A stretch of DNA of 64,000 bases. Origin: Gilvimarinus agarilyticus (GTDB lineage Bacteria; Pseudomonadota; Gammaproteobacteria; Pseudomonadales; Cellvibrionaceae). The notes under the pieces were generated by a model, which worked only from the letters and a program-made list of their open reading frames with translations, made no database searches and was not told where the DNA came from. A program made the position numbers and the translations under genes. Position 1 is the first letter of the stretch; every line of letters begins with the position of its first letter. Shown piece after piece: positions 37,137-64,000 of the stretch. Location: the NCBI RefSeq assembly GCF_000832015.1, contig NZ_JXCJ01000001.1, positions 1,773,672-1,837,671 on the forward strand, in the 5' to 3' direction.

Positions 37137-38291
37137 TTAAGGTGTCGGCAGGCACTCGCTGATTTTGCCACTGCCAGCATAAGTGGTGACGTGAGACTTC
37201 GTATCGGCACCCGCCATGGCGGTGTAACTGTACTCAGGGGTATAACTAACGGTGGAGGTCAGGTCGGTGCCTGGGCCGGCAATTAAATCGCCATCGGCCG
37301 GATTGCTCCAGCTAATATTGTCGTAAACATTATCCGCTAAATCCCAAAACCCGACTTCTTCCGAGTAAAAGCTCACTATGGGGTTTTGTACGTTTTCAAA
37401 GACAGTACCCTCTACCCGGATATTGGCGCCCATACGCGAGTTAACGGCGGTGGACGATACGTCTTTGTAGTAGTTGTTTAAAATGTGCCCCTCGCCAAAG
37501 CGGAACAGCGGCATACGTGAGCTGGCGTTCTCCCAGAAGTTGGCGTAGAAAGTGATGCGGCGATGGCTGCTGTCGTCATCGCTGCTGCCCCACAGAGACG
37601 TCTTCCAGCTGTCGTGTAGGTAGTTGTACGAGATGGTGACATTGTCCACATCGCGCTTACCGCTCACTAACTCGTCGTAATAATCTTTGTCGCTATCGAG
37701 TGTGTTGTAGATCTCGTTGTGATCGATCCAGATATTGCTGGCCGGGCCTTCGAGGCTAATGCCGTCTTTCTCGCCGATGTCGACATAGCGAATGGTGAGG
37801 TTGCGGATAATAACGTTGTCCGCTTTGTTTACTTTAATACCAATACCATCGAGCATGGCGCTATCGCCCACACCAATGATGGATACGTCGGATATGTCTT
37901 TGATATCAAATTTATCGACGTTGGAATTATCCGGGGTAATGGTGCCGTCGACAAAAATGGTTAATGGGTTGCTGCCCTTACCCGACAACGCCGCGCTAAG
38001 CTCTGTACCGGTGGTGACGGTGACGGTCTCACCGCCGGCGCCGCCGGTGGTGCCATCGCCTAAGCTGGCAAAGCCCACAACGGTGTTCATGGCATCACAG
38101 TGGTTGGCCACTGAACTACTGGAGGAACTCTCGGTGGATGAGCTCTCGCTAGAGGCACTCGAGCTGGCTTCGCTGCTCGATGACGAACTCTCGGGGTAGG
38201 TAGGATCACTGCCAGTCGGGCCGCTGGAGCCGCCACAGGCGCTCAGGGTGGCGGTGAGCACCAAAATACTAGAAAAAGTGACTGTTTTCAT
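37137..38291 (-). CDS. pectate lyase, family PL1, lipoprotein
   Basis: A 384-residue lipoprotein: lipobox LSACGG (Cys about 19), then a polyserine linker (about 34-62), then a single PL1 parallel-beta-helix domain (about 65-384). Signature segments are IWIDHNEIYN (calcium-binding Asp), SWKTSLWGSSDDD, and ASSRMPLFRFGEGH with the catalytic Arg. It cleaves polygalacturonate by beta-elimination at the outer surface. It is the last gene of TonB receptor - lipoprotein - lyase, all minus strand with gaps of 73 and 86 bases, and ends at a terminator. The product should be unsaturated oligogalacturonides for the neighbouring receptor. Confidence 0.93.
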   Translation of the reverse strand: MKTVTFSSILVLTATLSACGGSSGPTGSDPTYPESSSSSSEASSSASSESSSTESSSSSSVANHCDAMNTVVGFASLGDGTTGGAGGETVTVTTGTELSAALSGKGSNPLTIFVDGTITPDNSNVDKFDIKDISDVSIIGVGDSAMLDGIGIKVNKADNVIIRNLTIRYVDIGEKDGISLEGPASNIWIDHNEIYNTLDSDKDYYDELVSGKRDVDNVTISYNYLHDSWKTSLWGSSDDDSSHRRITFYANFWENASSRMPLFRFGEGHILNNYYKDVSSTAVNSRMGANIRVEGTVFENVQNPIVSFYSEEVGFWDLADNVYDNISWSNPADGDLIAGPGTDLTSTVSYTPEYSYTAMAGADTKSHVTTYAGSGKISECLPTP

Positions 38292-46689: not shown

Positions 46690-49600
46690 TTAGTCTGCCA
46701 ACTCCCAGCGCAGGTTGGCTATTTGAAAGGTGACTTCCTGCTCGCCGAATATCGGCCACATCGAGAAAGGAACCGTCACTTTTGTAAGGTCGAGCCCGGC
46801 GTTAGCCAAATCGGCAAAAGGCACGCTGACGGTGTGCCAATCGTTGTCCGCCGGCATGGCAACCGGAACTTCATTGCTGGAGGCACCGCCTTCCACTTTA
46901 ACCAAAAAGCCCGAGGTGTTACCGGCATTGTTGCTAACAACTTTGAGGTCAAACACCAGGTTGCCGTCGGCAAAGGCGCTTAGATCTTTGGCGGCGGTGT
47001 CCTGAATGTAGAAAGTGCCCATGTTGTTTTGGGTGAACTCTGCCTGCAGTACGGTGCCCTTATCGGGGTCAGTTATTGTGGCATCCAGATTGATCACCTG
47101 TCCGTCGGCTTGCCACACACCAAACCCTGGGTTGCCCCAGTCGGCCGACAGCCCGCCGACAAAGACATCCATGTCTTCCGTCACGGTCACCGGTGCCAGC
47201 TTGGGCTGGATGTCGCAATTTTCCAGACAAACGATGCGCACGTTATTAAGCTGAACATGCGAGGCGCCGCCCACCAGCTCTACTTCAAAGGGGTGCATCA
47301 CAGACGAGTAGTCTACGGTTGGCCCCCAGGACTCGTTAGGGTTGGCCCGCAGCGAGTAGAAACGTACAGCAACTGGCGTCCACTGGCCTACCATATCGGC
47401 GCTAAGCTCTATCTCGTCGAAGCTGAGGTTGGGGTACTCCGAGTTCAGTTTAACCTGCAGCTTGGCGCCCACATCGGCCGATTCCACCCAGATATCAAAC
47501 TTAAACTCGCCCAAATTGCGCGGACGGTTGTGCAGTGGGTCGCTGCCGAAGTTAAAGCCATCTTGCACGTCGGGGTAGCTGCCCATATCGGCCGAGCGCA
47601 GCCAGGCCACGCCAGGACTTACGTTGTTAAACTGCAGATCCCAGACCACGCCGCTGGTGCCGCTGTCGATAGGTGTGGCGGCCGGATCAGACATGAGTGA
47701 TCCATCGGGGTTATAGGTTTGATGTTGCAGCGTGTTGAGAACTTCGGTGCTGTTCACATCAAAGCTTAAGGTCTGAATGCCGCCCTCGGCGCCGTTATAC
47801 AACACCACTTCATCGCGTACATCCGGCGGTGGCACATGGCCGGTAATGTCAGTCGGTGTTACGCCCGCGTCGGCGGTTGGTGTCTCACAGCCCTGGCCGG
47901 TTACCGGGTCGTTGGCGCACTCGTAAACGCGCACATAATCGACTTCCATGGTGCGGGTGTCGGTAAAGGTTGGCAGGTCAATGTACTGACCATTACCCAG
48001 TGCAACGTTCAGAATCATATGAAACGCCTGATCGAACGGCTGCGCCTCGGTGCCTACCTGGTAGCCAACTTCCTGGCCACCCCAGTAGTAGATAAACCAG
48101 TTGCCGCTGTTGCGGGCAAACAGGACATTGTCTACATACCAGCGGATCTCGCCTTCTTCCCACTCTACGGTGTAGGTGTAAAAGTCATCCCAAATGTTAG
48201 TGGGTGGCTCGTAAGGCGCGCCACTGTACTGGTTCCAGGGCCATGAATAGCCATAGTGTAACGTGCCGTGCATTTCGTTTTCGGTGCCAGTGGGGGCGGG
48301 CCCCGCTACGCCGGGCTGGAAGGCTTCAAAAATATCCAGCTCGCCACTGTGCGGCCAGCCGCCATAAATGCTGGTGTCACTGGGTAGCATCCAAATGGCA
48401 GGCCAGATGCCCACGCCTTGTGGAACCCGGGCGCGAATTTCCATGCGGCCATAGGTCCAGTCGGCTTTATCGCGGGTGCGCAGGCGGGCCGATGAATAGT
48501 CTTTACAGGTGTTGGCGCCGGGGTAGCCGGGGTCTTCCTGATTCAGGGATGGGCCGCACACCATGCCGGGGCCTTCGTAGATGGCCGATATGTGCAGCAG
48601 GCTATCGTCGACGTAGCTATTGCTGGCGCTGTCGGTGTAACACTGGGCTTCGTTGTTGCCGCCGCCCCAGCAGTTAACCTCGTGCTCCCAGCGGTCGCTG
48701 TCGATGCTCGCACCGTTAAACTCGTCGTTCCACACCAGCTCCCAGCCGGTGGCTAGCGTGGTAGGTGCGCTGCCGCTGGTATCGATGCCGGCACCCGAAT
48801 CGCCACCGCTGCCGGTGCTGGACGAGCTGCCGGTGCCCGTGCCGGGATCAGAGCTGGAACTTGAGCTAGAGCTAGAGCTGGAGCTTGAAGAGCCGGTACC
48901 ACCGGTGTCGGATGAGCTGCTTGAGGACGAGCCCGAAGCGGCGTCGAATACCCAGCGCACGTTATCCAGCTGCACGTGTACGCCACTTTGGTTGCCCCAG
49001 GCGGGCAAAAACACAAACGGCGTGGTAATGGACCCAAGTGTGAAGCCGCCCTGTGGTGCGACGATTAACTCGTCGATCGGGATACTGATGTGAGTCCAGG
49101 TATTAAGCGCCGGGGGCGTCAGAATGTAGTCGCCCGAACCCATGTTGGCACCACTTTCGGCTTTCACCACCAAGCTTTGTGGGTTGCTGCCGTAATCGAG
49201 AACCTTAATGTCAAACTCCAGTGCGCCGTTTGCCGCAAAGGCACTAACATCCTTACCGCTGGTCGCCTGGATGTAGACCACACCGTTGGCACCGGTGGTG
49301 CCAAACTGAACGTCCAGAACCTCGCCTTGGTCAGGGTCGGTGGCGGCCGAGGTGGTAACGTGAGCACCGCCGATTTCATCCCAAATGCCAATGCCAAAAT
49401 CCCACAATGCGTCGGGGGCGGCATTGTCCAATACCGAGAAGGTGTCGGTCAGTACATCAATGGTGGGCTCGGTGGAGCCGCCGCCGTTGATCCACTCGAT
49501 GTTATCGACTTGAATGTGAACGCCGCCCTGGTCGTCCCACGCCGGTAAAATGACAAACGGTGTGTTAAAGGCATCGATATTAAAACCGCTGTTGCCAGGG

Positions 49601-51864
49601 GCTGAGAGCAAATCGGCAATGTCGATGGTCAGGGTTGTCCAGACGCCAGTGGGTACCCGGTCGATAATGTAATCGCCGGTACCGACCCCAGGCCCGCTTT
49701 CGGCTTTTACCACAATGCCGCCGGTGTTGGTGCCGTAATCCAGCACTTTAATATCAAAGCGCAGCTGGCCACCTTCCGCAAAAGCGCGACCATTTTTAGG
49801 TGTGGTGGATTGAATAAAAGCCAAACCATTATTGCCGCTGTTATCGAACAGAATATCCAGCACATCACCGCGGTCGGCGTCGGTGGTAACTTCGGCGGTG
49901 ACATGGCCTGAGTTGTTATCCCAGGTGCCCACACCAAAGTCCCAGTTGGGGCCGGGAATGCCGTTTTTAAATATCGCGAACTCGCCGGTTAAGGTGTCGC
50001 TAACGGCGGCCAATACCGGGTCGATGCCGCAGGGACTTAAACAACCGAGGCGAATGCCCGCCAGTTGCACGTGAGCGGTACCGCCAGAGGCCTCAATGAC
50101 AAACGCATTGATTAACTGACCGAGGTTGGCCTCGCCCGTTTCGATGTTGTTGGGCGATAACTCGTTAATGGCCACCGCAACGTCGGTCCACTCGCCAATG
50201 GCAGGAGTGTCGATGGTGTGGAAGCTAACGTTGGGCCAGCCACTGTCGAGCTTAATATGCAGCTCGGTGGCCGGGTCGATGGCCTCCACCAACATCTTAA
50301 AGCGCAGCTCACCGTAGGCGGCGACATTGGTGAATTTTACACCGTCGTTTACCTCGGGGTAGGCACTCATATCAGCGGTCGATAAAAAGGCATTGCCCGG
50401 GCCATTAAATTCAATATCCCATACGGTATTACCCTGGCCATCGGTCGCTTGTGGGTTGCTGATGACATTGCCGGTGTTGTTGTCGTAAAAACCCGGCACC
50501 AGAGTGTTGGTGATTTCGCCGTCGATGGTGTTGAAGGTAAAGCTGGCGGCCCCCTCGTCGTATAAAGCAAAGCTCTCCGGCGTAGGAGGTGCAACACCCG
50601 CGACGTCTTTAGCGGCCGGGTCTTTTGCGGCGCAGCCTTTGCCCGTGACAGGGTCTGCTGAGCACTCATAAACGCGAACGTAATCCACCTCCATGGTTTG
50701 CGGGAAGCTGGCCGAACCATCGGGTGCGCCGGGCCAGTTGCCACCCACTGCTACGTTCAGCAGCATATGAAAGTTTTGATCGAATGGCGCATCGTCGGCG
50801 CCCAGCTGGAAACCTTGCTCCTGACCGCCCCAGTAATAGGTAAACCAATCGTCTTGAGTGTGAGTGGCAAAGTGCACGTCGTCGACGTACCAGCGAATTT
50901 CGCCTTGCTCCCATTCGATCGCGTACGTGTGGAATTCTTCCCACACATTGGCAGGCGGGATGTAATCGCTACCGGTATTTAAGTTATTGGGCCAACTCCG
51001 GCCGTAGTGCAGGGTGCCGTGCACTTCGTTGCCACCGCCGGCGTTAGGGTTGACGGCCTCCATGATGTCGATTTCGCCGCTCAGTGGCCAGCCGCCGTAC
51101 GCCGAATCGGTTGGCAGCATCCAAATGGCGGGCCACAAGCCGTCGCCTTGCGGCAACTTGGCGTTAATTTCCATACGGCCATAGGTCCACTCGGCTTTAT
51201 TGCGGGTGCGTAAGCGGGCCGAGGTGTAGGGCATGGTGGCGGAGGTGTCGGCGGGGTTGTAGCCCGGATCTTCATTGTTAACGGCCGGGCCGCTAAAAGT
51301 TTCTTGGCGGGCGACGATAAACAGCTTGCCGTCTTGCACGTAGCTGTTGTCGGCGCGGTCGGTGTAACACTGTTGTTCATTGTTGCCACCGCCCCAGCAG
51401 TTAACTTCGTGCGACCACTTACTGCTGTCGATGCTGCTGCCTTCAAACTCATCATTCCACACCATCGTCCAGTCGCCACTGGCCACCGAGCTTGAGCTCG
51501 AGGAGGCGCTTGAGGCGGGTGTGCTGGAGTTGCCGACACTAGAAGAGTTTGCCACAGAGGAGTTGGCGCTGCTGCTAGAACTGCTGCTAGAGCTGCTACT
51601 GATCTCGCTCGAGCTTTGTGATGATTCACTTGAGCTGCTAGAGCTGGAAACCTCTGACGAGCTGGACTCACTTGAGTTGTCTTGTGAGCTGGATGAGCTT
51701 GGCGGTGGTGGTGGCGGCGGATCCTCCGACGACACAGAAGAGCTTACCGAGCTGGCAACGCTGGAGGAGGTGTTTGTGTCGCCTCCGCCAGAGCCGCCAC
51801 CGCAGGCGCTTAAGGTAAGCGCCATAACGCTTACCGTTGGGAGTAGGTATAGGTTTTTTATCAT
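46690..51864 (-). CDS. laminarinase with two GH16 domains, multi-domain lipoprotein
   Basis: A 1724-residue lipoprotein. Lipobox LSACGG (Cys21), then a Ser/Pro linker to about 130. The first GH16 domain covers about 131-405, with catalytic GEIDIME (nucleophile E264, acid/base E269). Three beta-sandwich domains follow (about 430-990); the second and third are close repeats (IKVLDYGTN... and IKVLDYGSN..., each ending QxDNxxW). A Ser-rich linker follows (about 1000-1035), then a second GH16 domain (about 1040-1310) with GELDIFE near 1175, and two more beta-sandwich domains. The sandwich domains resemble the carbohydrate-binding C-terminal domains of beta-1,3-glucan exo-hydrolases. Both GH16 copies keep their catalytic residues and share WGGGNNE-QCYTD. 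Expected to hydrolyse laminarin/beta-1,3-glucans at the cell surface. Monocistronic. Confidence 0.92.
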   Translation of the reverse strand: MIKNLYLLPTVSVMALTLSACGGGSGGGDTNTSSSVASSVSSSVSSEDPPPPPPPSSSSSQDNSSESSSSEVSSSSSSSESSQSSSEISSSSSSSSSSSANSSVANSSSVGNSSTPASSASSSSSSVASGDWTMVWNDEFEGSSIDSSKWSHEVNCWGGGNNEQQCYTDRADNSYVQDGKLFIVARQETFSGPAVNNEDPGYNPADTSATMPYTSARLRTRNKAEWTYGRMEINAKLPQGDGLWPAIWMLPTDSAYGGWPLSGEIDIMEAVNPNAGGGNEVHGTLHYGRSWPNNLNTGSDYIPPANVWEEFHTYAIEWEQGEIRWYVDDVHFATHTQDDWFTYYWGGQEQGFQLGADDAPFDQNFHMLLNVAVGGNWPGAPDGSASFPQTMEVDYVRVYECSADPVTGKGCAAKDPAAKDVAGVAPPTPESFALYDEGAASFTFNTIDGEITNTLVPGFYDNNTGNVISNPQATDGQGNTVWDIEFNGPGNAFLSTADMSAYPEVNDGVKFTNVAAYGELRFKMLVEAIDPATELHIKLDSGWPNVSFHTIDTPAIGEWTDVAVAINELSPNNIETGEANLGQLINAFVIEASGGTAHVQLAGIRLGCLSPCGIDPVLAAVSDTLTGEFAIFKNGIPGPNWDFGVGTWDNNSGHVTAEVTTDADRGDVLDILFDNSGNNGLAFIQSTTPKNGRAFAEGGQLRFDIKVLDYGTNTGGIVVKAESGPGVGTGDYIIDRVPTGVWTTLTIDIADLLSAPGNSGFNIDAFNTPFVILPAWDDQGGVHIQVDNIEWINGGGSTEPTIDVLTDTFSVLDNAAPDALWDFGIGIWDEIGGAHVTTSAATDPDQGEVLDVQFGTTGANGVVYIQATSGKDVSAFAANGALEFDIKVLDYGSNPQSLVVKAESGANMGSGDYILTPPALNTWTHISIPIDELIVAPQGGFTLGSITTPFVFLPAWGNQSGVHVQLDNVRWVFDAASGSSSSSSSDTGGTGSSSSSSSSSSSSSSDPGTGTGSSSSTGSGGDSGAGIDTSGSAPTTLATGWELVWNDEFNGASIDSDRWEHEVNCWGGGNNEAQCYTDSASNSYVDDSLLHISAIYEGPGMVCGPSLNQEDPGYPGANTCKDYSSARLRTRDKADWTYGRMEIRARVPQGVGIWPAIWMLPSDTSIYGGWPHSGELDIFEAFQPGVAGPAPTGTENEMHGTLHYGYSWPWNQYSGAPYEPPTNIWDDFYTYTVEWEEGEIRWYVDNVLFARNSGNWFIYYWGGQEVGYQVGTEAQPFDQAFHMILNVALGNGQYIDLPTFTDTRTMEVDYVRVYECANDPVTGQGCETPTADAGVTPTDITGHVPPPDVRDEVVLYNGAEGGIQTLSFDVNSTEVLNTLQHQTYNPDGSLMSDPAATPIDSGTSGVVWDLQFNNVSPGVAWLRSADMGSYPDVQDGFNFGSDPLHNRPRNLGEFKFDIWVESADVGAKLQVKLNSEYPNLSFDEIELSADMVGQWTPVAVRFYSLRANPNESWGPTVDYSSVMHPFEVELVGGASHVQLNNVRIVCLENCDIQPKLAPVTVTEDMDVFVGGLSADWGNPGFGVWQADGQVINLDATITDPDKGTVLQAEFTQNNMGTFYIQDTAAKDLSAFADGNLVFDLKVVSNNAGNTSGFLVKVEGGASSNEVPVAMPADNDWHTVSVPFADLANAGLDLTKVTVPFSMWPIFGEQEVTFQIANLRWELAD

Positions 51865-52745
51865 GATGGCCTCGTTTTATATCACTTTTTATTAAGGGTT
51901 ATTCCGCGCGGCTGGTGTGCTCGGCGCAATAAACTGGCGCATTCGTCAGGACTTGTTACTGCATTTTTATGGTTATGGCGCGAACCTTTTCCTGTCATTA
52001 AGGGCCCAGCAATTAAAGCCGGCGTAGGTTTGGCGACCGAGCTATCATGTGATGCGCGTCTATGGCCCGTCGTCCCACTTTGCCGGCGCTACGAACGTGA
52101 CCCGTGTCACTCTAAATGAGAGGGAACAGTGACACGGTCATCCAGTGCTGATTAACTGTTTCGCGGGGTTACGGTTATGCGGAGCGGTAAATGATGTTGT
52201 CGGGGGTGGCCCTGGCAAGTCGGAGTGCGGCGTGCTCGCCAGAGCGCGAAACGCTGGGTGCGCGAAATGATGCCGAAATAAACCATAGAGGCGCCTCACG
52301 GGCTTTTTTGGAGACATAAGCTCGTTGGTTTTTAGCGCACCTTTGGCGTGTTGAGTTGTTTCCCCCCCCAAAAACCAAATTGCATGAGTTTTTTAAAACA
52401 AACTTATTTCACATTTTTAAAAAGTTACCAGTAAGCCCACACCCCTTGCAGTTAAAGGGGTGTGGGCGATAGTCTCAATTTTTGTGGGGCAAATGTGGGA
52501 AAGAGTGACTTGTCACATTGGCCCTTGAAGGTTAGTGGGAAGACACCTTTATGGGGCAGGCATACAGTGCAAGCACTGGAACTATGCATGACTCTGAGTA
52601 CTGCGCTTAGAGAGCCGCCCAGCTCCAGCACTGCAGCGCGTCGATTGCGTGACCGACAGGAAGGTTGGAATGATTATCGACGATGGAAGCCGTGCAGCGA
52701 CACATTTACTCAACCTCACACAATGCTAATAATGAGGAGCGCTAC
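51865..52745. other. long divergent intergenic region
   Basis: About 880 bases between the laminarinase and the CBM-oxidoreductase genes. It must hold both promoters. I see GTGAC palindromes (52097-52110, GTGAC-N4-GTCAC; 52505-52516, GTGACTTGTCAC). I also see a strong hairpin GCCCACACCCCTT...AAGGGGTGTGGGC (52435-52467). Overlapping minus-strand open frames at 52138-52378 lack ribosome-binding sites and look like chance. No confident gene. Confidence 0.5.
52505..52516. promoter_or_regulatory. GTGAC-NN-GTCAC palindrome
   Basis: GTGACTTGTCAC, a perfect dyad about 230 bases before the CBM-oxidoreductase start; the same dyad (GTGACAGGTCAC) recurs at 59867. A candidate operator for an unknown regulator. 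Confidence 0.4.
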
Positions 52746-55700
52746 ATGATAGCCAAAACGTTTTCCCGAGGTGCCCTTGCGGCACTGGTCATAGCCGCCA
52801 GCAGCGGCGCCTACGCTCAGATAAGCAACCTATCTGGCTCGGCAACAGCGAGTGCGACAACCCAGGATTTACCCGCCAGTGCGGCCATTGACGGTGACGG
52901 TAATACCCGTTGGGCCTCTACCGCACAAGTTGACCCCTCGTCACTGACACTGGACTTAGGCGCTAGCTTTGCGCTGTCGGAAGTCATTATTTATTGGGAG
53001 GCGGCCAACGCCAACGAGTACGAAATTCAGGGCTCTAACGACGGCAACAACTGGTCGACACTTGCCACCCGCTCGGGCGGCGCTTTTGGCGACCGTACCG
53101 ATACCGTCCCAGTATCGGGCAACTACCGCTATGTACGCATGCACGGTATTAGCCGCAGCGCCGGTAACAACTGGGGCTACTCTATTTGGGAGATGGAAGT
53201 GTACGGCGCGCCGGCCACTCAGGGCAGCGAGGTGGAGCTGACCAACCTTGGCGGTATCATCAGCTCGCAACACGCCGATTCGCCGGCGGGTGAAGGTCAC
53301 GGTGACGCGGTTGATAACAATGTGAACACTAAGTACCTCACGTTTAACAATGCAGCTTGGCTGCAATACGAGGTGGCCGAGCCCTACGTGGTTACCCGCT
53401 ACTCAATCAGCTCGGCCAACGACAGCCCAGAGCGTGACCCGGCAAGCTGGACGTTGCAGGGCTCAAACGACGGTAACAGCTGGACGGCCGTTGATGCGCG
53501 CATTAATGAAGACTTCCCCAACCGTTACCAGACCCGTGACTTTAGCTTTAGTAACAGCTCGGCCTACCGTTTTTATCGCTTAGATATGAGCAATAACTCG
53601 GGCACGATTTTGCAGTTGTCGGAGTTTGAACTGTTTGGCGTTGCTGCAAGTGGTGGCACCAGTGCGACACCCGTGCGCCTGGAAGCCGAAGATTATGATG
53701 CTTATTTTGATACCTCGGCCGGTAACAACGGCACCGCGTATCGCAGTGATGATGTTGATATCGAAGCCAATGGCGCCGGTTATAACGTCGGCTGGATGGA
53801 GCCGGGGGAATGGCTTGAGTACAACGTCAGTCTGGCCGCTGGCACCTACGATATCAGCACCCGCGTAGCGTCTGATACGGGCGGCGGTGCTTACAGTGTG
53901 TCTGTCGCCGGCGGCTCGGTCAGTGGCAATGTGCCTGCTACCGGCGGTTGGCAAGTGTGGCAGGAGCAGGGCCCCGGCGCTATTTCTGTGGCGCAAGCGG
54001 GCAATTACACCGTGCGCCTGGATGTTAATGCCGCGGGTATGAACCTCGATTGGATTCACCTGGAGCCGAGCGCCACATCTAGCTCCAGCTCCGTCTCGTC
54101 CAGTTCCTCCAGCGCCAGCGGTAACTGCGATAACGGCTGCTTGGAATTGGTTAATGGCCAAACCTTGCGCGCCACTGTCAGTGGCGGCGATACGGTAGAC
54201 GTTCACTACACGATTAACGGCGGCGCGCAAAACAACGTGCGTATGAACGAAGCCAATGGCGAGTGGACCTACGACATTGCCGGGCTCAACAGTGGCGATG
54301 TGGTAAGCGTGAGCTTTACGGTGATTACCAACGGTGCCGGTCAGAGCCTGGCGTGGCGCGACTATACCGTAGGCGGCTCTAATAACTCGTCGTCTAGCTC
54401 GAACAGCTCATCAAGTTCAAGCAGTAGCTCAAGTTCCAACTCTAGCAGCTCGTCCAGTAGCTCAAGCACACCTGCCGGTGGCCCGGTAGTGCCTTTGTAC
54501 AACAGTGGTACTTCACTTGAGCCCGTAATTCAGTTTGATCGCGGCGACGCTTTGGTTACACGCTTTTCCGATCGAGGCCGTGATCGTCACGCCAAAGAGG
54601 ATCAGTTTCAGGCTTACGAGCACTATTTAAGCTTTTACTGGGAGGATCGCACGGCGGCCATCGAGATTGTCGATTACGTGGCCAAGGGCGGCGACACCAT
54701 TCGCATGAACGTGGTGACGCAGTTTCGCTTAAACGATACCGAGGCCGAGAACCGCTGGTTCTATCGCGGTGTCGGCACCGTGGCCGAGTTCTGTGACAAC
54801 GGCACCATGGAAGTTATCGATGATTTTAATTACTACAAAGAGCGTAGCTTTAACTGTCGCGAAGGTCGCGCGATTCAGATTGGCGATAAAATGGAATTTG
54901 AGCTGAGTCAGTTTCTGGATCATAGCGTACCGAATGGCCGCTCGGCCTACTACGGTTCAACCTATCTCTATATTGTGGGCGAGGGCTTAGTACCCTGGGA
55001 GGTTGGCGGAGCGACACCTGCCGGTGGTGTTAAAGATTCGGTTAAGATCCCTGAGAAGGCTTGGCTGGGCGGGCACACCACCGTACACGCCATGAGCTCA
55101 AACGAGCCCGACAATTTGTTTATGCAAATGGCAACCAACTTAGGCTTTGATAACGCGCAACCGTTTGTGGAAGGGCGCCGGGTGCTGCATAGCTCGTTTG
55201 TCGATGGCGTGCACGATGAGCGGCCAATTGAGAACCCAGCGTTTGGCCCCGCTATTGGACGCGCAGGTCCCCTGTTTGTAAAAGACAGCTGCGCTGGATG
55301 TCACGTGCGTAATGGCCGTGCGGCGCCTAACGCCGTGGGTGAGCATCTGGACAAATGGGTATTCAAAGTCGGTGATATCAACGGTAATCCACATCCGCAG
55401 TTAGGGCGTGTGTTACAACCCGAAGCCAACAGTGGTGCCGGCAGTGAAGGAGAGGTGGCTATTTCGTCCTGGACCGAGCAAAACGGTTTGCGCTCGCCAA
55501 ACTTTGCGTTTAGCGGCGTAACGCCCGAGACTTTCTCGGCGCGTATTGCACCGCAGTTGGTGGGTATGGGTTTACTGGAGGCGATTTCTGAGTCGGATGT
55601 ACTGGCTCAAGAAGACCCGAACGACAGTAATGGCGATGGAATCTCCGGGCGTGCTAACCGCGTGGCGGATCCTGTGACCGGAGAAACACGTTTGGGCCGC

Positions 55701-56363
55701 TTTGGCTGGAAAGCCGCTAAGGTCAGCGTAGAAGACCAGGTTGCCGGTGCTTTTAATACGGATATGGGAGTGATGAGCTCGGTGTTTCCCGATCCGGATT
55801 GTGGCAGCGCGCAATCTAACTGTGGGGCGTCTGGCTCTGAGCTTAGCGACACTCACCTCGATAATCTGGTGAAGTATATTTCGCTCTTGGGTGTGCGCGC
55901 GCAGCGTGACTACGATGATCCTGCGGTAGTGAATGGTGCGACCGTATTTGACTCAGTCGGTTGTGCCGACTGTCACACACCGTCGTACCAAACCAGCCAG
56001 TACCATCCACTGGGCGAGCTACGTGATCAGGCGATTCAACCTTACACCGACTTGCTTTTGCACGATATGGGCCCCGGCCTTGCCGATAACCTTGGCGAGG
56101 GCGATGCAACCGGTAGCGAGTGGCGCACCACACCGCTGTGGGGCTTAGGCTTAGCGGCTTGTGTTACCGGTGGTACTACCAATGCGGCGCAAGGACAGCA
56201 AGTGTGTACACCGGTACACAGCTACCTGCACGATGGTCGCGCACGCACTATCGATGAAGCGATTCGCTGGCACGGTGGTGAGGGTGAGGCCTCTAAACAA
56301 AACTACGAAGCGCTGTCTAATGCGCAAAGAGAGGATTTACTCGCGTTCTTACGTTCGCTGTAA
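52746..56363 (+). CDS. carbohydrate-binding di-haem oxidoreductase fusion
   Basis: A 1205-residue exported protein from ATG 52746 (GAGGA upstream; the 21-residue extension is rejected). Order: signal peptide to about 25; two F5/8-type C (CBM32-like) domains (about 28-155 and 165-300); a CBM6 domain (about 310-440, RLEAEDYDAYFDTSAGNNG...WMEPGEWLEYNV); Ser linker; a CBM56-like beta-1,3-glucan-binding domain (about 455-545, VDVHYTINGGAQNNVRM); a second Ser linker; then a di-haem oxidoreductase domain (about 580-1205). The haem motifs are CAGCH at 849-853 and CADCH at 1073-1077. The redox domain belongs to the DHOR/peroxidase-like family. Four binding modules fused to a cytochrome suggest electron transfer or oxidation at a polysaccharide surface. 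The reaction is unknown. Confidence 0.9.
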   Translation: MIAKTFSRGALAALVIAASSGAYAQISNLSGSATASATTQDLPASAAIDGDGNTRWASTAQVDPSSLTLDLGASFALSEVIIYWEAANANEYEIQGSNDGNNWSTLATRSGGAFGDRTDTVPVSGNYRYVRMHGISRSAGNNWGYSIWEMEVYGAPATQGSEVELTNLGGIISSQHADSPAGEGHGDAVDNNVNTKYLTFNNAAWLQYEVAEPYVVTRYSISSANDSPERDPASWTLQGSNDGNSWTAVDARINEDFPNRYQTRDFSFSNSSAYRFYRLDMSNNSGTILQLSEFELFGVAASGGTSATPVRLEAEDYDAYFDTSAGNNGTAYRSDDVDIEANGAGYNVGWMEPGEWLEYNVSLAAGTYDISTRVASDTGGGAYSVSVAGGSVSGNVPATGGWQVWQEQGPGAISVAQAGNYTVRLDVNAAGMNLDWIHLEPSATSSSSSVSSSSSSASGNCDNGCLELVNGQTLRATVSGGDTVDVHYTINGGAQNNVRMNEANGEWTYDIAGLNSGDVVSVSFTVITNGAGQSLAWRDYTVGGSNNSSSSSNSSSSSSSSSSSNSSSSSSSSSTPAGGPVVPLYNSGTSLEPVIQFDRGDALVTRFSDRGRDRHAKEDQFQAYEHYLSFYWEDRTAAIEIVDYVAKGGDTIRMNVVTQFRLNDTEAENRWFYRGVGTVAEFCDNGTMEVIDDFNYYKERSFNCREGRAIQIGDKMEFELSQFLDHSVPNGRSAYYGSTYLYIVGEGLVPWEVGGATPAGGVKDSVKIPEKAWLGGHTTVHAMSSNEPDNLFMQMATNLGFDNAQPFVEGRRVLHSSFVDGVHDERPIENPAFGPAIGRAGPLFVKDSCAGCHVRNGRAAPNAVGEHLDKWVFKVGDINGNPHPQLGRVLQPEANSGAGSEGEVAISSWTEQNGLRSPNFAFSGVTPETFSARIAPQLVGMGLLEAISESDVLAQEDPNDSNGDGISGRANRVADPVTGETRLGRFGWKAAKVSVEDQVAGAFNTDMGVMSSVFPDPDCGSAQSNCGASGSELSDTHLDNLVKYISLLGVRAQRDYDDPAVVNGATVFDSVGCADCHTPSYQTSQYHPLGELRDQAIQPYTDLLLHDMGPGLADNLGEGDATGSEWRTTPLWGLGLAACVTGGTTNAAQGQQVCTPVHSYLHDGRARTIDEAIRWHGGEGEASKQNYEALSNAQREDLLAFLRSL

Positions 56364-56492: not shown

Positions 56493-59400
56493 TTAGAAGT
56501 CGTAACGGAAACCTACCCGCAGCTCCCACAGCGAGGCGCTACCCACACGGGTTGGTCCGGCCGGGTCGCGAAACTCTTCAAATACGTAACGACCCTGGTC
56601 GTCCATCGAGGCGTTAACGGCGGCTTGCGAACGAGGGAAGCTGGTCTCGTATTGCACACCCCAATCGTCATTAATCAGGTTACCCAGGTTCTCGATAACC
56701 ATATAAATAGACGAGCGGTGCTCCTCCATAATACCTGGCAGCTCTTGTTCGACTTTTAAATCAAACTTAACCCACCAATCGCTGTTCAGCTCGTTGCGCT
56801 CCATAACCTGACCGCGGGCAAGGCCTTCGCCATCGGCAAATTCAAAAAAGGCGTCGCTGTCAAAGCCTGGATCGAACACCACGTTTGGATCGTCGGTGCC
56901 GGTGGGCACATACAACAGGTGACGGGAAATAAACCCGGTGGAATCACCAAACATGTAACCGCTGCCAAAGGTGTAGCTGTAAGGCCGGCCTTCGTTGGCG
57001 GAGCCAAACAATGTAAAGCGCGTATCGTAATCCCCAAAGAAGGCGTGCTCGTACGCGATCTTGGTGGTAAAGCGGTGCGGAATATTATAGTTAGAGGTAG
57101 CCGGGCCGGGGTTTTCCGGGTCGGCGGTGGCCAGGTTAGTGTAGTTAGAGAAAGCCACCGAGCTGGTCATAGGGTTGACGTCTTCAGCGTCGCTGTAGGC
57201 GTAACCGGCGGCCAACTCTAAACCAAAGTCAAAGTATTTGCTGGCGCCTACCGAGATGGTTAACGCTTCCCCACCGTCCTCAACGTTGGTCAGCATAAAG
57301 TCCTGGCTGCGGCCCTCGACGCTGCCGTAAATCGGGCGGCCGTCAAGCGCGGTACCGGTTTGCACACGAGAGATATCGGAGATTATGGCTGAGTTCTCGT
57401 ACTGGCTGTAAAGAATGTCACCCGACAGTATCAGGTTGCCTGCAAACTCGTAGCTGGTACCAAAGGCGTACTTCCACACCGATGGCAGTTCAAAGTCCGG
57501 GTCCTGCAAGTTAACGCCGCCGTTAGAGCCTTGATTGTTGGCCACCTGATCGTACAGCGCTTGCGGGATGTCGTAGATCGGACGACCTTCACCGGTAAAG
57601 GGCATATCGAGAATTGAGTTGCCCGAATTATCTTGTACCTCAATTTGCGTTACGCCATCGTTAGAGTAGTTATTAGAGATCCATACGTTGGGGTTACCGC
57701 CCGAGTACAAACCTACACCACCGTGAATTTCAAATTGGTCGGCCAAGTCCCAGTTAAAACCTAAGCGCGGTTGTATAAGATCGAGGCCATCCAGATTTTG
57801 ACGGGTATCAATTAGGTAGGTGCCCAGAATGTCGTAATTTTGGGTCGGGGTGTCGTCACTTTCGTAGTAGTCGTAACGCAAGCCGGCTACCACTTTTAGG
57901 TCACCGTCATTGAGGAAGATTTCGTCTTGCAAATACAGTGTATTAATAGCGTATTCAAACTCGGCCGCTGCATCGGCTTTGACATTAGTGCCAGCGGCGT
58001 TTTCGTAGATGATAACGTTCGGGGTGCCGGCCTCGAAATCTTCGATGGACGAGAAACGGTACTCGCCTTCCGATTCCTGAACGAACATGTTGAATACATC
58101 AAAGGTTTCACGCTCATAGCCGAAGGTGAAGGTTTGATGATCTAAGCGGTAGCTACCGGCAAATTTCAAGTTCAACGACTCGTAAGACAGCTTGTTGGCA
58201 TGACGCGAGTCATCGGCGCCCAGGTAAACAGTCGCTTCTGACAAGTTACCGTCGTTGTCATGATCGTTCATGGTGGTGATTTGAACTTCACCAAAGTCGG
58301 TACCGGCAAGCGAGAGCTGACGGTTGTCCAGTTCTTGGTAACCAATTTTTATCTCTGTGGAGAACGCATCGGTCCAATCGGAGAATAACTGACCAACGTA
58401 CGAGGTAAGCTCGGCACCGCGCTCGTAATAGTGGTTAGAGAACTCCAGCTCGTCAGAGTCGCCATCGGACTGCGCAATCGAGTAGCCATCATTGTAATTG
58501 TAGGTAAACGAGGCGCGCTGAGATGTGGTGATGTTCCAGTCCAGTTTAACCAGTAACTTTTCATCTTCTACCGGCAAGCTGGATGGGAAGCTACCCGGAT
58601 CATAGTTATACACATCGTTAGCGATACGCTCGATCTCGGCGATTTGCGCGGCGGACACACCCTCTACCGGGGTGGCAACATTGGCGTCAGCGGTGCCTCG
58701 ATCAAAGGTGTCTACGCCTTCGAGTTTTTCGTAGGCGGCAAAAAAGAACAACTTGTCCTGAATGATTGGCCCGCCCAGGCTAAAGCCATAGCGCTGCTCG
58801 TCAAACGGGGCGATATCGATACTGTCGCCTTCAAGTGAGTCGCCGCCCATGGAGTCGTCGGTGTAGTCGTAAAAAACTGAGCCGTGAAACTCGTTTTCAC
58901 CGGACTTGGTGACAGCATTGATGTTACAGGCACTAAAACCGCCGTATTGCACATCAAATGGTGCCAGCTCTACCGCTACCTGCTCGATGGCATCATACGA
59001 AAAGGGCATACGCTCAGTAGGGTAGCCGTTGCTGTTTAAGCCGAAATTGTCGTTCATGCGAACGCCGTCAACCGTCAAACTGTTAAAGCGTGGGTTGGCG
59101 CCGGCACACTGAATCGAGTCATTAAAGGCTTCGTCGATGTAGATACGCGGATCTAGCCGCACAACGTCTTTTAAGTCGCGGTTGATTGCCGGTGCGGTTT
59201 CTAAATCGTGCAAGCTGAAAGTTGTGTTCGGGCCGACAGCGGCAAAGTTTTGCTCCTGCAGGTTACCAACCACCAGGACTTCCTCGGTGGCCATTTCACC
59301 CACAACCACTTCCAGCTGATAAGAGTCGCCCAACGACAGGTACACATCTTCGACCGTGCTGGTGCCTTCATCGGCGGTCACGGTAATGGTGTAAGGGCCG

Positions 59401-59636
59401 CCCACGCGCAGGCCGCGAGCGTTAAAGCGCCCGGCCTCGGTGGTGGTTAGGTCGCTTTGGCTGTTAGAGGGTGTATGGGTAATGGTAATGGTGGCGTCAT
59501 CCAGTGGCTGGCCGCTGGTATTGGTAACCTGTCCCTGGATCGCAGAGGTGGTTTCCTGTGCGATGGCCGGTAGCGCGGTCCCCATAACCGCCGCTATCGA
59601 AAGAACTAAAGTATTCCGTGTTAATTGCTTTTGCAT
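56493..59636 (-). CDS. Oar-like TonB-dependent receptor
   Basis: A 1047-residue outer-membrane protein read from ATG 59636. The signal peptide ends at AIA. A carboxypeptidase-regulatory-like domain (about 27-112) comes next, with IQGQVTNTSGQPLDDATITIT. The plug (about 120-250) has NRDLKDVVRLDPRIY and AFDVQYGGFSACNINAVTKSG. A long barrel ends LRVGFRYDF. This layout is that of the Oar/OmpA-related TonB-receptor group rather than classical siderophore receptors. Such proteins have been linked to secretion or export as well as import. The gene is divergent from the EEP gene. The ligand is unknown; surrounding genes suggest glycan-related cargo. Confidence 0.9.
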   Translation of the reverse strand: MQKQLTRNTLVLSIAAVMGTALPAIAQETTSAIQGQVTNTSGQPLDDATITITHTPSNSQSDLTTTEAGRFNARGLRVGGPYTITVTADEGTSTVEDVYLSLGDSYQLEVVVGEMATEEVLVVGNLQEQNFAAVGPNTTFSLHDLETAPAINRDLKDVVRLDPRIYIDEAFNDSIQCAGANPRFNSLTVDGVRMNDNFGLNSNGYPTERMPFSYDAIEQVAVELAPFDVQYGGFSACNINAVTKSGENEFHGSVFYDYTDDSMGGDSLEGDSIDIAPFDEQRYGFSLGGPIIQDKLFFFAAYEKLEGVDTFDRGTADANVATPVEGVSAAQIAEIERIANDVYNYDPGSFPSSLPVEDEKLLVKLDWNITTSQRASFTYNYNDGYSIAQSDGDSDELEFSNHYYERGAELTSYVGQLFSDWTDAFSTEIKIGYQELDNRQLSLAGTDFGEVQITTMNDHDNDGNLSEATVYLGADDSRHANKLSYESLNLKFAGSYRLDHQTFTFGYERETFDVFNMFVQESEGEYRFSSIEDFEAGTPNVIIYENAAGTNVKADAAAEFEYAINTLYLQDEIFLNDGDLKVVAGLRYDYYESDDTPTQNYDILGTYLIDTRQNLDGLDLIQPRLGFNWDLADQFEIHGGVGLYSGGNPNVWISNNYSNDGVTQIEVQDNSGNSILDMPFTGEGRPIYDIPQALYDQVANNQGSNGGVNLQDPDFELPSVWKYAFGTSYEFAGNLILSGDILYSQYENSAIISDISRVQTGTALDGRPIYGSVEGRSQDFMLTNVEDGGEALTISVGASKYFDFGLELAAGYAYSDAEDVNPMTSSVAFSNYTNLATADPENPGPATSNYNIPHRFTTKIAYEHAFFGDYDTRFTLFGSANEGRPYSYTFGSGYMFGDSTGFISRHLLYVPTGTDDPNVVFDPGFDSDAFFEFADGEGLARGQVMERNELNSDWWVKFDLKVEQELPGIMEEHRSSIYMVIENLGNLINDDWGVQYETSFPRSQAAVNASMDDQGRYVFEEFRDPAGPTRVGSASLWELRVGFRYDF

Positions 59637-59949
59637 GGCATTTATTCCCGTTAGGTTGTTCCATGGTCGATTGTTCAATGCGTCTCATGCGCCCCATTTT
59701 TTGTGAGTGCATGCTCCCGCCCGCTATGGCGATTTAGCGCCATACGAGAGTTGGTTGTTATCCTGCGGTGGGAGATTATTAGAGTTGTTTTTACATTGGC
59801 CCGAGGACTCTAGCGAAAATATGCGAAACTTCTGTGACCGCGCTGTGACAAAATAAAGACAAAGGGGTGACAGGTCACGGATCGGTCACAAAGTTTGGGT
59901 AGGCTCACGCTTTTTGTGATCGAATGCATCATTAATAAGGTGGCGCTCC
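59637..59949. other. divergent promoter region with GTGAC palindromes
   Basis: Between the Oar-like receptor and the EEP-family gene lie GTGACAGGTCAC (59867-59878) and CTGTGACCGCGCTGTGACA (about 59832-59850), plus CGGTCACAAAG near 59883. The repeated GTGAC half-sites suggest a bound regulator. No gene is present. Confidence 0.45.
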
Positions 59950-61353: not shown

Positions 61354-64000
61354 TTACTGACAAGCGACCTTACCTAAGCCTAATACATACCAGGGCTCGT
61401 AGCCGAGCGGCGAGTTAAACGGAACCTCGCCATTTTTACCGGCGGTAGCGCTGACGTAATCGGCCAGCTCTTGCCCGGAGCCTAAGTAGTTATCGCTAAT
61501 GGCATCCCGTGAGGTTTGCGAATAGTTTTGTTTAAGGTCAGACACACTGCCAGAGGCATCGGTAATCAGGTACTCCAGTGATGGGTCGAGATTACAGTTG
61601 GCATCCGAGAACCATACGCGGGTGTTTTCTGAGCGGAAGTTACCGCCGTCTACATCCCGTGCCAGCTCTTCACCGCGCTCATTAAGCGCCTGCACAACGT
61701 CGTCTTTTTCCTGGAAGTCGCGGTTCATTAGCACCATGTTATCTTCCCACAGAACGGTGCCGCCGACACGCACACTTAAGATGTCTTTGCGGTAGTTCAT
61801 AAAGAAGTTTTCAAACATGTGTGAGGTGCCGCGACGAATCAGCGGTATACGGCGAAGGGTGTTACCCAGGTTGTCGTACTGATCGTCCGTGGTGATAAAC
61901 GCGTTGTGGTGCATGGTGGTGGTGATTTGCGAGTTGATTTCGCGGCTATCACTAGAGCCATGCAGTGCGGCACGCTTAACGTTGATCAGTTTATTGAACG
62001 ATATGGTGATGTCATAGGCACCTACTTTCACATCAAACGCTGCGTCACCGGTGGTGTCGAAGGTGTTTTTGTGAATCCAGATGTCGTGTGACGCACCGGT
62101 ATTGCGGATCATGTCTGGGTCCAGGCCGTGGTCTTCAGTATGACCCGCCCCGCGGAAGTCCAGATGAGTCAGAATCACGCTCTCCGCCGTTTGTACCGGC
62201 TGACCGGAGCTGTCGCTGCCGATTGCAAAACCGTTAAAGCGGAAGTAGCCGTTGCTCATGCGACCGTCGAGTGTTTTGTGTGAGCCGATCTTGGTGTTAC
62301 GAATCGGCAAATCATTGTCGTTCAAACGGTCGTTGTAAAACTCGGCCGCGCAGTTCGCATCGGAAATGCCTTTGTCGTCGCACCACTGATGGTAGTCATT
62401 ACACTGAGCTTCGCTGCCATCAATCGCGTCCAGTACATCAGGGTTAGAGCAGTGGTTGCGGTGCATGGAAATTTCAGTCTCATTAGCGAAGTCGACTTTA
62501 TCAAACACAATCCAGTTGTGATCATCACCGGTAACCGCGTCCAGTAGCTGTTGCTCGACTGACGTTGCACTGTTTTTAGTGATAATGGTCAGTTGGCTGT
62601 TGCCGTTTGGATCAAAACCACCCAGAGCGTTCTCGCCGTAACCTACCGCACGACCGAGTGAGTTAGACAAACACTCAACAATTTCCTGGTCGGATTGCAG
62701 CGAAGTTGAGCGCCAGTTGACGTTCGGGTCGGTGGCGATGGCGACACAGTCGTCGGACAGATCTGTCTCGGGAGGTGGTGTCACCGAAGAGCTCGACGAA
62801 CTGCTAGAGCTGGTTTCACTTGATGAACTAGCGTCCGATGAACTGCTTGAACCTTCGATGGGGCCGTTAGCGTTGTATACCTCAATCTCGGCGATTTGCG
62901 GTGCGCCGTTGGCCGAGTGGATCTCGAGGCTCACTTTACTGGTGGATACATCGCCAAATCCAGTAATAACCGCTTCACTACCCAGGCTGCCGCCGGTTGC
63001 CAGTACATCACCGTTGTCGTAGTTGATCAGAGACCAGCTGGTGGTGGCATTGTTAAGCTCGCGCACGATAACCGTGTTAAAGCTGCCCGCTATACCTTTT
63101 ACTGAAATGGTCTCGTTGCTGGACGAGCCCGGCTGCCAGTAAGAGCTACTGTCACCGTCAACGACATTGCCGTAACTGCTGCCGCCGCCTTTACTGCTGC
63201 CGTCGGCGCCGGAGGCCTTGTTATCGCCCAGCTCTGGGGGCTCGGCGGGGGCACTTGACTCGGACGAACTAGACGCTTCGCTGCTTGAGCTAGACGTATT
63301 ACCGCCCGCGCAATCGCCCGCCTGGGGCGCATTACCGGTAATGCTTACGCTGTCGATATTGGCAAGGCCCGAGCTTCCCGTGGCTTCTAAGCGCAAGTCG
63401 TTATAGCCGGCGTTGAGGTACACAGAGACGGTTCCGGTGCCGGTAAAGTCATTCCAGGCGCTGGTGGCTGGCATATCAACATTGGTTTGGCTGGCGCCGT
63501 TGATCAGTACATTACCAGGACGGTTATCGCCGCCATTGGCATAGTGCCAGTTAAGCTCGTACGCGCCCGCTACAGGAACCGTAACAGACCAGTCAATGCC
63601 GGCACCTTGGACGTTTTCGGTGTTGGCAAAACCACTGCCGCTAAAGCCCGAGTGGTTGTTGTCGATAGTGCCTTCGACATTACAGAAGCCGGCTGACTCT
63701 TCGATGGTGAGCGTAGAGGTTGCCGTGCTGATCGTGGCGTCATCGGCGTTAGAGTTAATGACTGTGTTGTTTTGATCGGTGATTTTAATCCAGTAGTAAT
63801 ACGTACCATCGGCAAGGCCGGTATCGGTATAGTTGTTACCAGCGACGCCAGTGGCAATGCGTACGCGTCCGGCAGGATCCGAATCGGTATCTCGATAAAC
63901 CTCTTGATTGCGAGCATCGATATTATCCAGATTCCAGTTCAACTGAGCGGCATTGCCCGAGGTGGTTACGTTTAAGTTCACCTCGCCGGGTGCGCTAGAC
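61354..64000 (-). CDS. multi-domain PL1 pectate lyase (5' end outside window)
   Basis: At least 881 residues; the frame stays open to the window edge (SSAPGE before the first Val), so the true start, signal peptide and probably another Ser-rich stretch lie to the right. From the first visible residue: an Fn3-like domain (to about 90), a CBM35/CBM6-like domain (about 95-225, NHSGFSGSGFANTENVQGAG), Ser linker, an F5/8-like domain (about 245-375), Ser linker, then a PL1 parallel beta-helix (about 405-875). Lyase motifs are LDPDMIRNTGASHDIWIHKN, FDVKVGAYDITISFN and LRRIPLIRRG with the catalytic Arg. It cleaves pectate by beta-elimination, and the extra modules tether it to plant or algal wall material. 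It is distinct from the shorter PL1 at 37137. Confidence 0.92.
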   Translation of the reverse strand, partial: SSAPGEVNLNVTTSGNAAQLNWNLDNIDARNQEVYRDTDSDPAGRVRIATGVAGNNYTDTGLADGTYYYWIKITDQNNTVINSNADDATISTATSTLTIEESAGFCNVEGTIDNNHSGFSGSGFANTENVQGAGIDWSVTVPVAGAYELNWHYANGGDNRPGNVLINGASQTNVDMPATSAWNDFTGTGTVSVYLNAGYNDLRLEATGSSGLANIDSVSITGNAPQAGDCAGGNTSSSSSEASSSSESSAPAEPPELGDNKASGADGSSKGGGSSYGNVVDGDSSSYWQPGSSSNETISVKGIAGSFNTVIVRELNNATTSWSLINYDNGDVLATGGSLGSEAVITGFGDVSTSKVSLEIHSANGAPQIAEIEVYNANGPIEGSSSSSDASSSSETSSSSSSSSSVTPPPETDLSDDCVAIATDPNVNWRSTSLQSDQEIVECLSNSLGRAVGYGENALGGFDPNGNSQLTIITKNSATSVEQQLLDAVTGDDHNWIVFDKVDFANETEISMHRNHCSNPDVLDAIDGSEAQCNDYHQWCDDKGISDANCAAEFYNDRLNDNDLPIRNTKIGSHKTLDGRMSNGYFRFNGFAIGSDSSGQPVQTAESVILTHLDFRGAGHTEDHGLDPDMIRNTGASHDIWIHKNTFDTTGDAAFDVKVGAYDITISFNKLINVKRAALHGSSDSREINSQITTTMHHNAFITTDDQYDNLGNTLRRIPLIRRGTSHMFENFFMNYRKDILSVRVGGTVLWEDNMVLMNRDFQEKDDVVQALNERGEELARDVDGGNFRSENTRVWFSDANCNLDPSLEYLITDASGSVSDLKQNYSQTSRDAISDNYLGSGQELADYVSATAGKNGEVPFNSPLGYEPWYVLGLGKVACQ

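Follow-up and report, generated by a model that had tools for sequence, protein, structure and literature searches.

The 64,000-nucleotide window analyzed here (Gilvimarinus agarilyticus contig NZ_JXCJ01000001.1, positions 1,773,672 to 1,837,671) contains a gene whose product joins four carbohydrate-binding modules (CBMs) to a conserved domain, termed X, and a di-haem oxidoreductase domain (DHOR). We conclude that this protein is very probably a haem-containing redox enzyme that is secreted and directed to beta-1,3-glycans. Support is good for its targeting but not for its chemistry. Peroxidase-type chemistry of the DHOR is an even bet, and it is rather doubtful that the glycan itself is what is oxidised. 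Our preferred reading, held tentatively and at somewhat short of even confidence, is that of a secreted, polymer-bound auxiliary enzyme of beta-1,3-glucan breakdown that uses peroxide to modify the glycan oxidatively.

Domain architecture of the window protein

The open reading frame (ORF) at 52683-56363 on the forward strand encodes 1226 amino acids, or 1205 if translation starts at Met22 (position 52746), which we consider the likelier start. Met22 opens what appears, by inspection rather than with a predictor, to be a typical signal peptide, MIAKTFSRGALAALVIAASSGAYA-Q, and the protein is predicted to be secreted. The signal peptide is followed by two F5/8 type C (CBM32-like) domains, a CBM6, a CBM56, a polyserine linker, X and finally DHOR. 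The features are listed below with the basis for each; module coordinates were taken from local hidden Markov models (HMMs).

52746..52820, +, putative Sec-type signal peptide, residues 22-46 with the preferred start Met22 (translation inspected)
52842..53177, +, F5/8 type C (CBM32-like) domain 1 (Pfam PF00754, best stretch 54-165)
53280..53618, +, F5/8 type C (CBM32-like) domain 2 (local HMM 200-312; PF00754 gives a second stretch)
53745..54065, +, CBM6 domain (PF03422, E 2.3e-15; local HMM 355-461)
54141..54344, +, CBM56, a beta-1,3-glucan-binding family (PF22184, E 5.3e-20; local HMM 487-554)
54387..54467, +, polyserine linker (translation)
54486..55046, +, X domain, a modelled Ig-like beta-sandwich without a Pfam model (A3 profile match, residues 602-788)
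55047..56360, +, DHOR domain, modelled with the di-haem peroxidase fold of bacterial cytochrome c peroxidase (bCCP) and MauG (PF06537; VIA Z 9.2-13.9)
55290..55304, +, haem 1 motif CAGCH with proximal His874 (His in 54/54 sequences)
55707..55763, +, Trp1009, Gln1019 and Asp1027, proposed to correspond to the inter-haem Trp, distal Gln and catalytic acid of bCCP (hhalign)
55962..55976, +, haem 2 motif CADCH with proximal His1098 (54/54 sequences)
56271..56273, +, His1197, predicted distal ligand of haem 2 at the bCCP Met position (hhalign)

Pfam recovered DHOR at E 9.4e-67 in two stretches (the best at residues 952-1226) and F5_F8_type_C at E 1.1e-30, likewise in two stretches; together with the values listed for CBM_56 and CBM_6, these exclude matches by chance. 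A DHOR score of 226 bits against a curated cut-off of 22, and the two CXXCH motifs (CAGCH at residues 870-874, CADCH at 1094-1098), place the protein in the DHOR family. An earlier note, made from the DNA letters, had listed two CBM32-like modules, a CBM6, a CBM56-like module and a DHOR with CAGCH and CADCH, and both Pfam and the translation confirm that list. It did not include X, which lies directly before DHOR. LPMO_10 was not among the 14 Pfam families that matched the window protein at E up to 10, and no hydrolase domain is present. The genome contains no second PF06537 match and carries the cytochrome c maturation gene CcmH; both motifs are presumed to be loaded with haem.

The DHOR domain and its haem sites

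VIA comparison of DHOR, within the model of X plus DHOR, returned MauG, MauG-like and bCCP-type proteins, BthA and hydrazine synthase gamma, with Z scores of 9.2-13.9. The best 26 matches (Z 12.6-13.9) aligned mostly over model residues 188/222-625, with root-mean-square deviations (rmsd) of 3.2-3.9 A over 232-254 residues, except for 5c2v (7.0 A) and 6v59 (4.5 A); the other bCCP matches had Z 9.2-10.3. By this modelled structure, DHOR has the di-haem peroxidase fold of bCCP and MauG. Foldseek with X plus DHOR gave E-values of 0.045 and worse, so that nothing reached E 0.001, and none of the 50 rows listed was a bCCP; Pfam CCP_MauG (PF03150) was not among the 14 families matched at E up to 10.

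A profile of alignment A2, which covers 53 of the 80 loci of our wider genome scan (alignment A3 covers 35), had 19 matches among PDB sequences at E up to 1. The best, a cytochrome c555 trimer (2e-12, in three short stretches), was set aside, having only the haem 2 segment in common, and was followed by hydrazine synthase gamma (0.004) and a bCCP (0.0047). Profile alignment of DHOR with bCCPs by hhalign gave 97.8% in local and 99.2% in global mode. In the global alignment, Trp1009 and Gln1019 coincide column by column with the Trp and Gln of the bCCP motif 'WDGR..LxxQA', and Asp1027 was matched by eye, over a two-residue shift, to the acid of bCCP 'EM'. His1197 aligns to the column of the bCCP haem-2 Met. 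In bCCPs the aligned Trp, Gln and acid act as inter-haem Trp, distal Gln and catalytic acid.

These positions are strongly conserved. Among 54 aligned sequences from several phyla, both proximal His, His1197 and Gln1019 are present in all 54, Asp1027 in 53 and Trp1009 in 40 (Tyr in 10). Four divergent DHORs of the same genus, three of them with CBM31 by Pfam, keep the Trp, Gln, Asp and His1197; two of the four lack His1127, Arg1006 and other residues. Haem 2 is ligated by Met-His in bCCPs and by Tyr-His in MauG (PMC6405878). Neither the bCCP-type Met nor the Tyr of MauG and BthA was found as sixth ligand here: the bCCP-Met column, as aligned to the bCCPs, holds His1197 or its equivalent in every one of the 54 sequences. 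The alignment leads us to predict His/His ligation of haem 2.

X and DHOR form one unit

No Pfam match at E up to 10 placed its best stretch within X, NCBIfam gave no match to the window protein, and phmmer with X plus DHOR found no PDB sequence at E up to 1. AlphaFold2 (AF2) modelled X and DHOR jointly with a predicted local distance difference test score (pLDDT) of 93.7 and a predicted template modelling score (pTM) of 0.94; X alone had a pLDDT of 86.8. The best structural match of X was a CBM56 chain, 5t7a (VIA Z 8.9, rmsd 2.5, 93 of 93 chain residues aligned). CrdA was the best match outside CBM56 (Z 7.3), and beta-GRP chains ranked 12-15, the laminarihexaose-bound beta-GRP scoring Z 6.5. 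Foldseek on X alone gave weak matches, with E 0.053 and worse. By sequence, hhalign gave X against CBM56 a probability of 2.8%, and the local CBM56 HMM did not overlap X. CBM56 is thus the top fold match of X, yet near background level, and because sequence homology failed we do not name X a CBM56.

X is conserved to nearly the same degree as DHOR. In 42 sequences the mean majority-residue frequency was 0.56 in X versus 0.61 in the DHOR core, with 11% versus 20% of columns conserved at 95% or more, and X includes invariant Arg, His and Tyr residues and an RDRH motif. A search of 244 genomes of the order with a profile of X only gave 28 matches in 19 genomes; the profile was built from DHOR-linked copies, so that distant free-standing relatives of X could escape it. 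The 20 stretches fetched cover 22 of the 28 matches, and all 21 X ORFs in them also hold DHOR, some being cut by contig ends. Five of the remaining matches are family proteins known to hold DHOR, and one is a weak fragment (G277:C56). Across all loci, a single X ORF in 145 was without DHOR; it lies in L122, at a tblastn match that runs across a broken frame. In this locus, from Catenovulum sediminis, X and DHOR appear split over two frames, and the same chromosome has a second X-DHOR copy (L124). By its conservation, its joint model and its co-occurrence, X belongs to one unit with DHOR.

Relatives of the X-DHOR protein and their partner modules

A scan across the bacterial family matched X+DHOR or DHOR in 106 of 144 genomes. 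Among the matches listed, X+DHOR was counted by eye in 62 of the 144, with G024 and G052 as partial matches. One family genome, G138, had eight X+DHOR matches, an unusual expansion. The wider genome scan considered the best 80 of 582 confirmed stretches, and 59 of these 80 loci hold X+DHOR, in Gammaproteobacteria, Burkholderiales, Planctomycetota, Verrucomicrobiota, Myxococcota, Fibrobacterota and others. Gilvimarinus polysaccharolyticus (G045) is the closest named relative within these best 80 of 582, at 88% over X+DHOR.

Relatives join the pair to various modules. Same-family relatives include single proteins that start with a GH16-type domain (GH, glycoside hydrolase), continue with CBMs such as CBM6 or CBM56 and end in X+DHOR. 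GH16-CBM-X-DHOR fusions also occur in Pseudoalteromonas and Colwellia, and a fusion in Aliiglaciecola has GH16, then Lipoprotein_15, then X+DHOR. Among 138 distinct X+DHOR proteins (five of them cut at a locus edge), we counted CBM32-like domains in 78, CBM56 in 46, Lipoprotein_15 in 29, CBM6 in 27 and GH16 in 17, proportions that are not a census because most of these sequences were collected for their similarity to the window protein. One of the 17 GH16 cases is doubtful: the HMM match in L221 looks spurious and was kept in this count and left out of the fused group of the tree described below. At least one of the five modules was present in 110 of the 138 X+DHOR proteins versus 1 of 30 DHOR ORFs without X (L157).

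Trees of the DHOR core were built by a 'quick' method from cores of at least 350 amino acids with few masked letters, without duplicates and with a subset of the family loci. All X+DHOR proteins fell on one side of a branch with SH-aLRT 98. The X/no-X label changed once on the first tree, from which the filter had left out the divergent Phycisphaerae sequence L168, and twice once that sequence was added. L157, its nearest neighbour, fails the X profile but aligned over the region, and scoring it as X restores a single change. The X+DHOR proteins are essentially one branch of the DHOR family, with the Phycisphaerae pair L157/L168 ambiguous. The GH16-fusion label, by comparison, changed nine times on the first tree, ten times with L168 and eight times on the first tree without four cut sequences (L056, cut by the end of its stretch, was scored as not fused), and the starred branches force six to seven of these changes. 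With eight to ten changes on the trees, joining or parting with GH16 therefore happened repeatedly.

We note two further groups of loci. Lipoprotein_15 (PF03640, 'secreted repeat of unknown function') stands N-terminal to X-DHOR, often directly, in L069, L058, L066, L067, L071, L075, L098-L101, L105, L107 and L108, and may be a redox or binding part. X-DHOR loci of Oxalobacteraceae and other Burkholderiales include L130, L132-L137, L142 and L144, and L132 and L136 have two CBM32-like domains each. Soil-type Collimonas, Massilia and Duganella carry X-DHOR at 33-36% identity, where a fungal-wall target is possible.

GH16 genes and a probable operon around X-DHOR

In 11 of 20 genomes a GH16 gene was located no more than 5 kb from X-DHOR, versus 0.3 expected from GH16 numbers and genome size. 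The count is not independent because nine of the 11 positives come from one related genus, g22, the other two being of the window's genus. The 20 genomes were chosen high in the match list, others there (such as G086 and G098) being passed over, and the GH16 count omits four second halves or fragments, one each in G000, G045, G081 and G059.

Of 15 neighbourhoods fetched, those of five g22 genomes (L174, L177, L182, L183 and L187) share genes running in the same direction around X-DHOR. The order in L187, the only one of the five annotated with Pfam, the others being compared by gene clustering, is TonB receptor, Trp_halogenase, Cupin_8, Trp_halogenase, X-DHOR, GH16 and GH3; L182 is identical in gene clusters and order. 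Three of the five, L174, L182 and L187, have the receptor cluster in view, and a single halogenase-cluster gene is seen in L174, L177 and L183. From GH16, GH3 and the receptor, this set is probably a laminarin-type operon. The earlier note had placed such an oxidative contribution outside standard polysaccharide utilization loci (PULs); the probable g22 operon, with GH16 and GH3 in five genomes and the TonB receptor in three, does not support this.

Measured against a laminarin-type PUL, the window has a divergent GH16 neighbour and receptor genes nearby. The neighbour, upstream of the X-DHOR gene, is as follows.

46690..51864, -, 1724-aa protein carrying GH16 in two stretches and Exop_C at the C-terminus, divergent from the X-DHOR gene

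Downstream, positions 56493-59678 encode an outer-membrane receptor with carboxypeptidase-regulatory and plug domains, beyond which lie a phosphatase-family gene and then a pectate lyase gene with CBM35. The window's divergent GH16/X-DHOR pair and the aldolase and phosphofructokinase (PFK) genes behind it recur in G045 (L175), where the GH16 protein has 839 aa. Pectate-lyase-family genes flank the region at 37137-38291 (-) and 61354-63981 (-), and apart from two pectate lyases elsewhere in the window we found no link of X-DHOR to pectin. A 435-aa ORF at 32819-34126 (-) has no Pfam match at E 0.001.

DHOR proteins linked to beta-1,3-xylan

DHOR has been described in Xyn65, a GH26-CBM31-CBM6-Big-DHOR protein of Gilvimarinus xylanilyticus (PMC9638140). 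It dominated the 1,3-xylanases secreted on 1,3-xylan, accounting for 82.3% of xylanase spectra in the secretome, and its authors proposed, among other options, an oxidoreductase activity on the polymer (PMC9638140). We identified a likely Xyn65 counterpart of 1673 aa in two genomes of the window's genus (L247 and L248). In L247 it has CBM31, CBM6, Big_7 and DHOR by Pfam, GH26 not being shown at E 0.001; the DHORs of L247 and L248 are divergent and have no X-profile match. The gene next to it in L247 encodes a second protein with CBM31, Lipoprotein_15 and DHOR. These adjacent CBM31-DHOR genes, L247:1938-5573 (-) and L247:6082-11100 (-), probably mark a 1,3-xylan locus around the Xyn65-like gene. 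At L249, in the same genome as L247, and at L250, in another genome, a DHOR gene with a weak X match adjoins a CBM6-CBM31 gene, and the L249 DHOR protein itself bears CBM31. CBM31 being a 1,3-xylan module, DHOR thus occurs repeatedly alongside modules for two polymers with beta-1,3 linkages.

Discussion

Taken together, these data support the earlier note's proposal that a haem enzyme is brought to beta-1,3-glucan: the window protein and 46 of the 138 X+DHOR proteins have CBM56, GH16 fusions recur, and a GH16 gene adjoins the window gene. We envisage that CBM56, CBM6 and the two CBM32-like modules, on their flexible serine linker, would hold the enzyme on the polymer, with the rigid X+DHOR pair as the working unit. 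Trp1009, Gln1019 and Asp1027 might form a pocket at haem 1 where H2O2 (or O2) is activated, haem 2 with its predicted His/His ligation would act as an electron relay, and reducing equivalents would be drawn from the bound polymer or from molecules beside it. The glycan would thereby be oxidatively modified, and GH16 and GH3 enzymes could act on it more easily.

Several observations weigh against this scheme. None of the five searched modules is carried by 28 of the 138 X+DHOR proteins, and 35 bear only CBM32-like domains, whose target is unspecified. Nine of the 20 genomes (genera g9, g20, g17 and g21) have no GH16 near the gene, and most of the genomes that do belong to the one genus g22. At the wider loci, GH16 was fused or flanking in 11 of 59 with X versus 0 of 21 without, an association that is therefore suggestive only (Fisher p 0.058). 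The His/His ligation predicted for haem 2 could mean pure electron transfer. The literature searched yielded no measured DHOR activity. Xyn65 hydrolyses at 76.9 U/umol, close to the 91.9 U/umol of the DHOR-less Xyn80, and the retrieved text of that paper does not mention haem loading of the E. coli-made enzyme (PMC9638140).

Other functions would account for part of the evidence. A tethered peroxidase might remove H2O2 at the surface of algal or fungal polymers and shield the bacterium and its enzymes from a host oxidative burst, leaving the glycan unchanged. The bCCP/MauG fold, the retained peroxidase residues and the wide taxonomic spread with varied modules would suit this role. We nevertheless consider it unlikely, as it leaves the repeated gain or loss of the GH16 fusion unexplained and as the classical bCCP is supplied with electrons by a small partner, either a periplasmic cytochrome or a cupredoxin, whereas a secreted, CBM-bound protein has no evident donor. 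Peroxide would play no part if the X-DHOR cleft were a dehydrogenase, oxidising reducing ends or hydroxyls of beta-1,3-oligosaccharides with electrons leaving through haem 2. His/His ligation would favour such an exit, and the conservation of X, close to that of the DHOR core and including invariant Arg, His and Tyr, is what one would expect of part of an active site. The retention of the peroxidase-type Trp, Gln and Asp argues the other way, and we know of no sugar dehydrogenase with a DHOR fold of the bCCP/MauG type, so that a dehydrogenase seems improbable to us. That the haem domain is catalytically dead, a structural or binding element, was listed as a possibility by the Xyn65 authors (PMC9638140); since the CXXCH motifs and proposed distal residues vary little or not at all across 54 sequences from several phyla, we regard this as very improbable.

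Electron supply, a further suggestion of the earlier note, would make the protein a donor to lytic polysaccharide monooxygenases (LPMOs) or to some other acceptor outside the cell, the role suggested for Cbp2D/E of Cellvibrio japonicus. A precedent is the CjX183 domain of Cbp2D, which can start the reduction of AA10 LPMOs (PMC8981238). Four AA10 genes are present in the G. agarilyticus genome, none of them inside the window, and AA10 was the only LPMO family searched. Within the family, AA10 was found in 53 of the 62 X+DHOR genomes (among the matches listed) versus 37 of the 82 others (odds ratio 7.2, p 7e-7), an enrichment that may merely mark polysaccharide degraders and related species. AA10 is missing from the other nine of the 62 and, outside the family, from 15 of 20 genomes searched (present in five), several of these being metagenome-assembled genomes (MAGs) of uncertain completeness and others isolates. 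That second search covered 22 genomes, two of which (those of L094 and L138, both AA10-positive) belong to the family and had already been counted. On this pattern, AA10 is therefore neither required by X+DHOR nor independent of it. The in-family enrichment makes electron supply conceivable in general, and the genomes without AA10 leave it specifically unsupported; we see only a small chance that this is what the protein does.

A bolder form of glycan oxidation has, in our view, a slim chance of being correct: X-DHOR could be a peroxide-driven haem oxidative depolymerase of beta-1,3-glycans, with X forming the substrate side of the haem cleft. Its substrates would then be laminarin, curdlan or callose, and 1,3-xylan, and it would be a haem counterpart of LPMOs for helical polymers where flat-surface LPMOs fail. 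Should our preferred reading, an auxiliary redox enzyme of beta-1,3-glucan breakdown, be right, a haem-dependent redox step would belong to the degradation of beta-1,3-glucan and beta-1,3-xylan, which are large carbon pools of marine and fungal origin. To our knowledge, such a step is missing from current models of carbohydrate-active enzymes (CAZymes) and PULs.

Related degraders also have secreted, polysaccharide-linked c-type cytochromes, namely Cbp2D/E of C. japonicus and TERTU_2913 and TERTU_3803 of Teredinibacter turnerae. Cbp2D/E carry CBMs and are needed for growth on insoluble cellulose (PMC12542752, PMC8981238, PMC10916295). These proteins are built from X183/X132 (one CXXCH each), the YceI-like X158, or X122/X173, with cellulose-type CBMs, and TERTU_2913 is without CBMs. 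The window protein differs in having a two-haem DHOR with X and beta-1,3-glucan-type CBMs; neither the YceI-like X158 nor a cellulose CBM was among its Pfam matches. Xyn65 is closer, being likewise a secreted, CBM6-containing protein that ends in DHOR, here joined to an enzyme cutting a beta-1,3-linked polymer; it has GH26 and CBM31 in place of CBM32 and CBM56. Stand-alone DHORs (PF06537, DUF1111), such as those beside imelysins (PMC3143127), have the same haem domain, and all nine in alignment A2 share the invariant haem residues; they are mostly ~470-550 aa and without X. The bCCP, MauG and BthA proteins (PF03150) resemble DHOR in fold, in their two c-haem motifs, in the Trp and Gln and probably in the acid; the Met of bCCP or Tyr of MauG at haem 2 is replaced by an invariant His in DHOR, and the window protein is predicted to be secreted and CBM-bound. 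CBM-linked cytochromes (Cbp2D/E and the Teredinibacter proteins) and a DHOR-fused xylanase are thus already published. Our searches of the open-licence PMC literature found no description of an X+DHOR family, and what appears to be new is that X+DHOR forms a single, widespread family directed at polymers and recognisable by a domain and a residue signature of its own.

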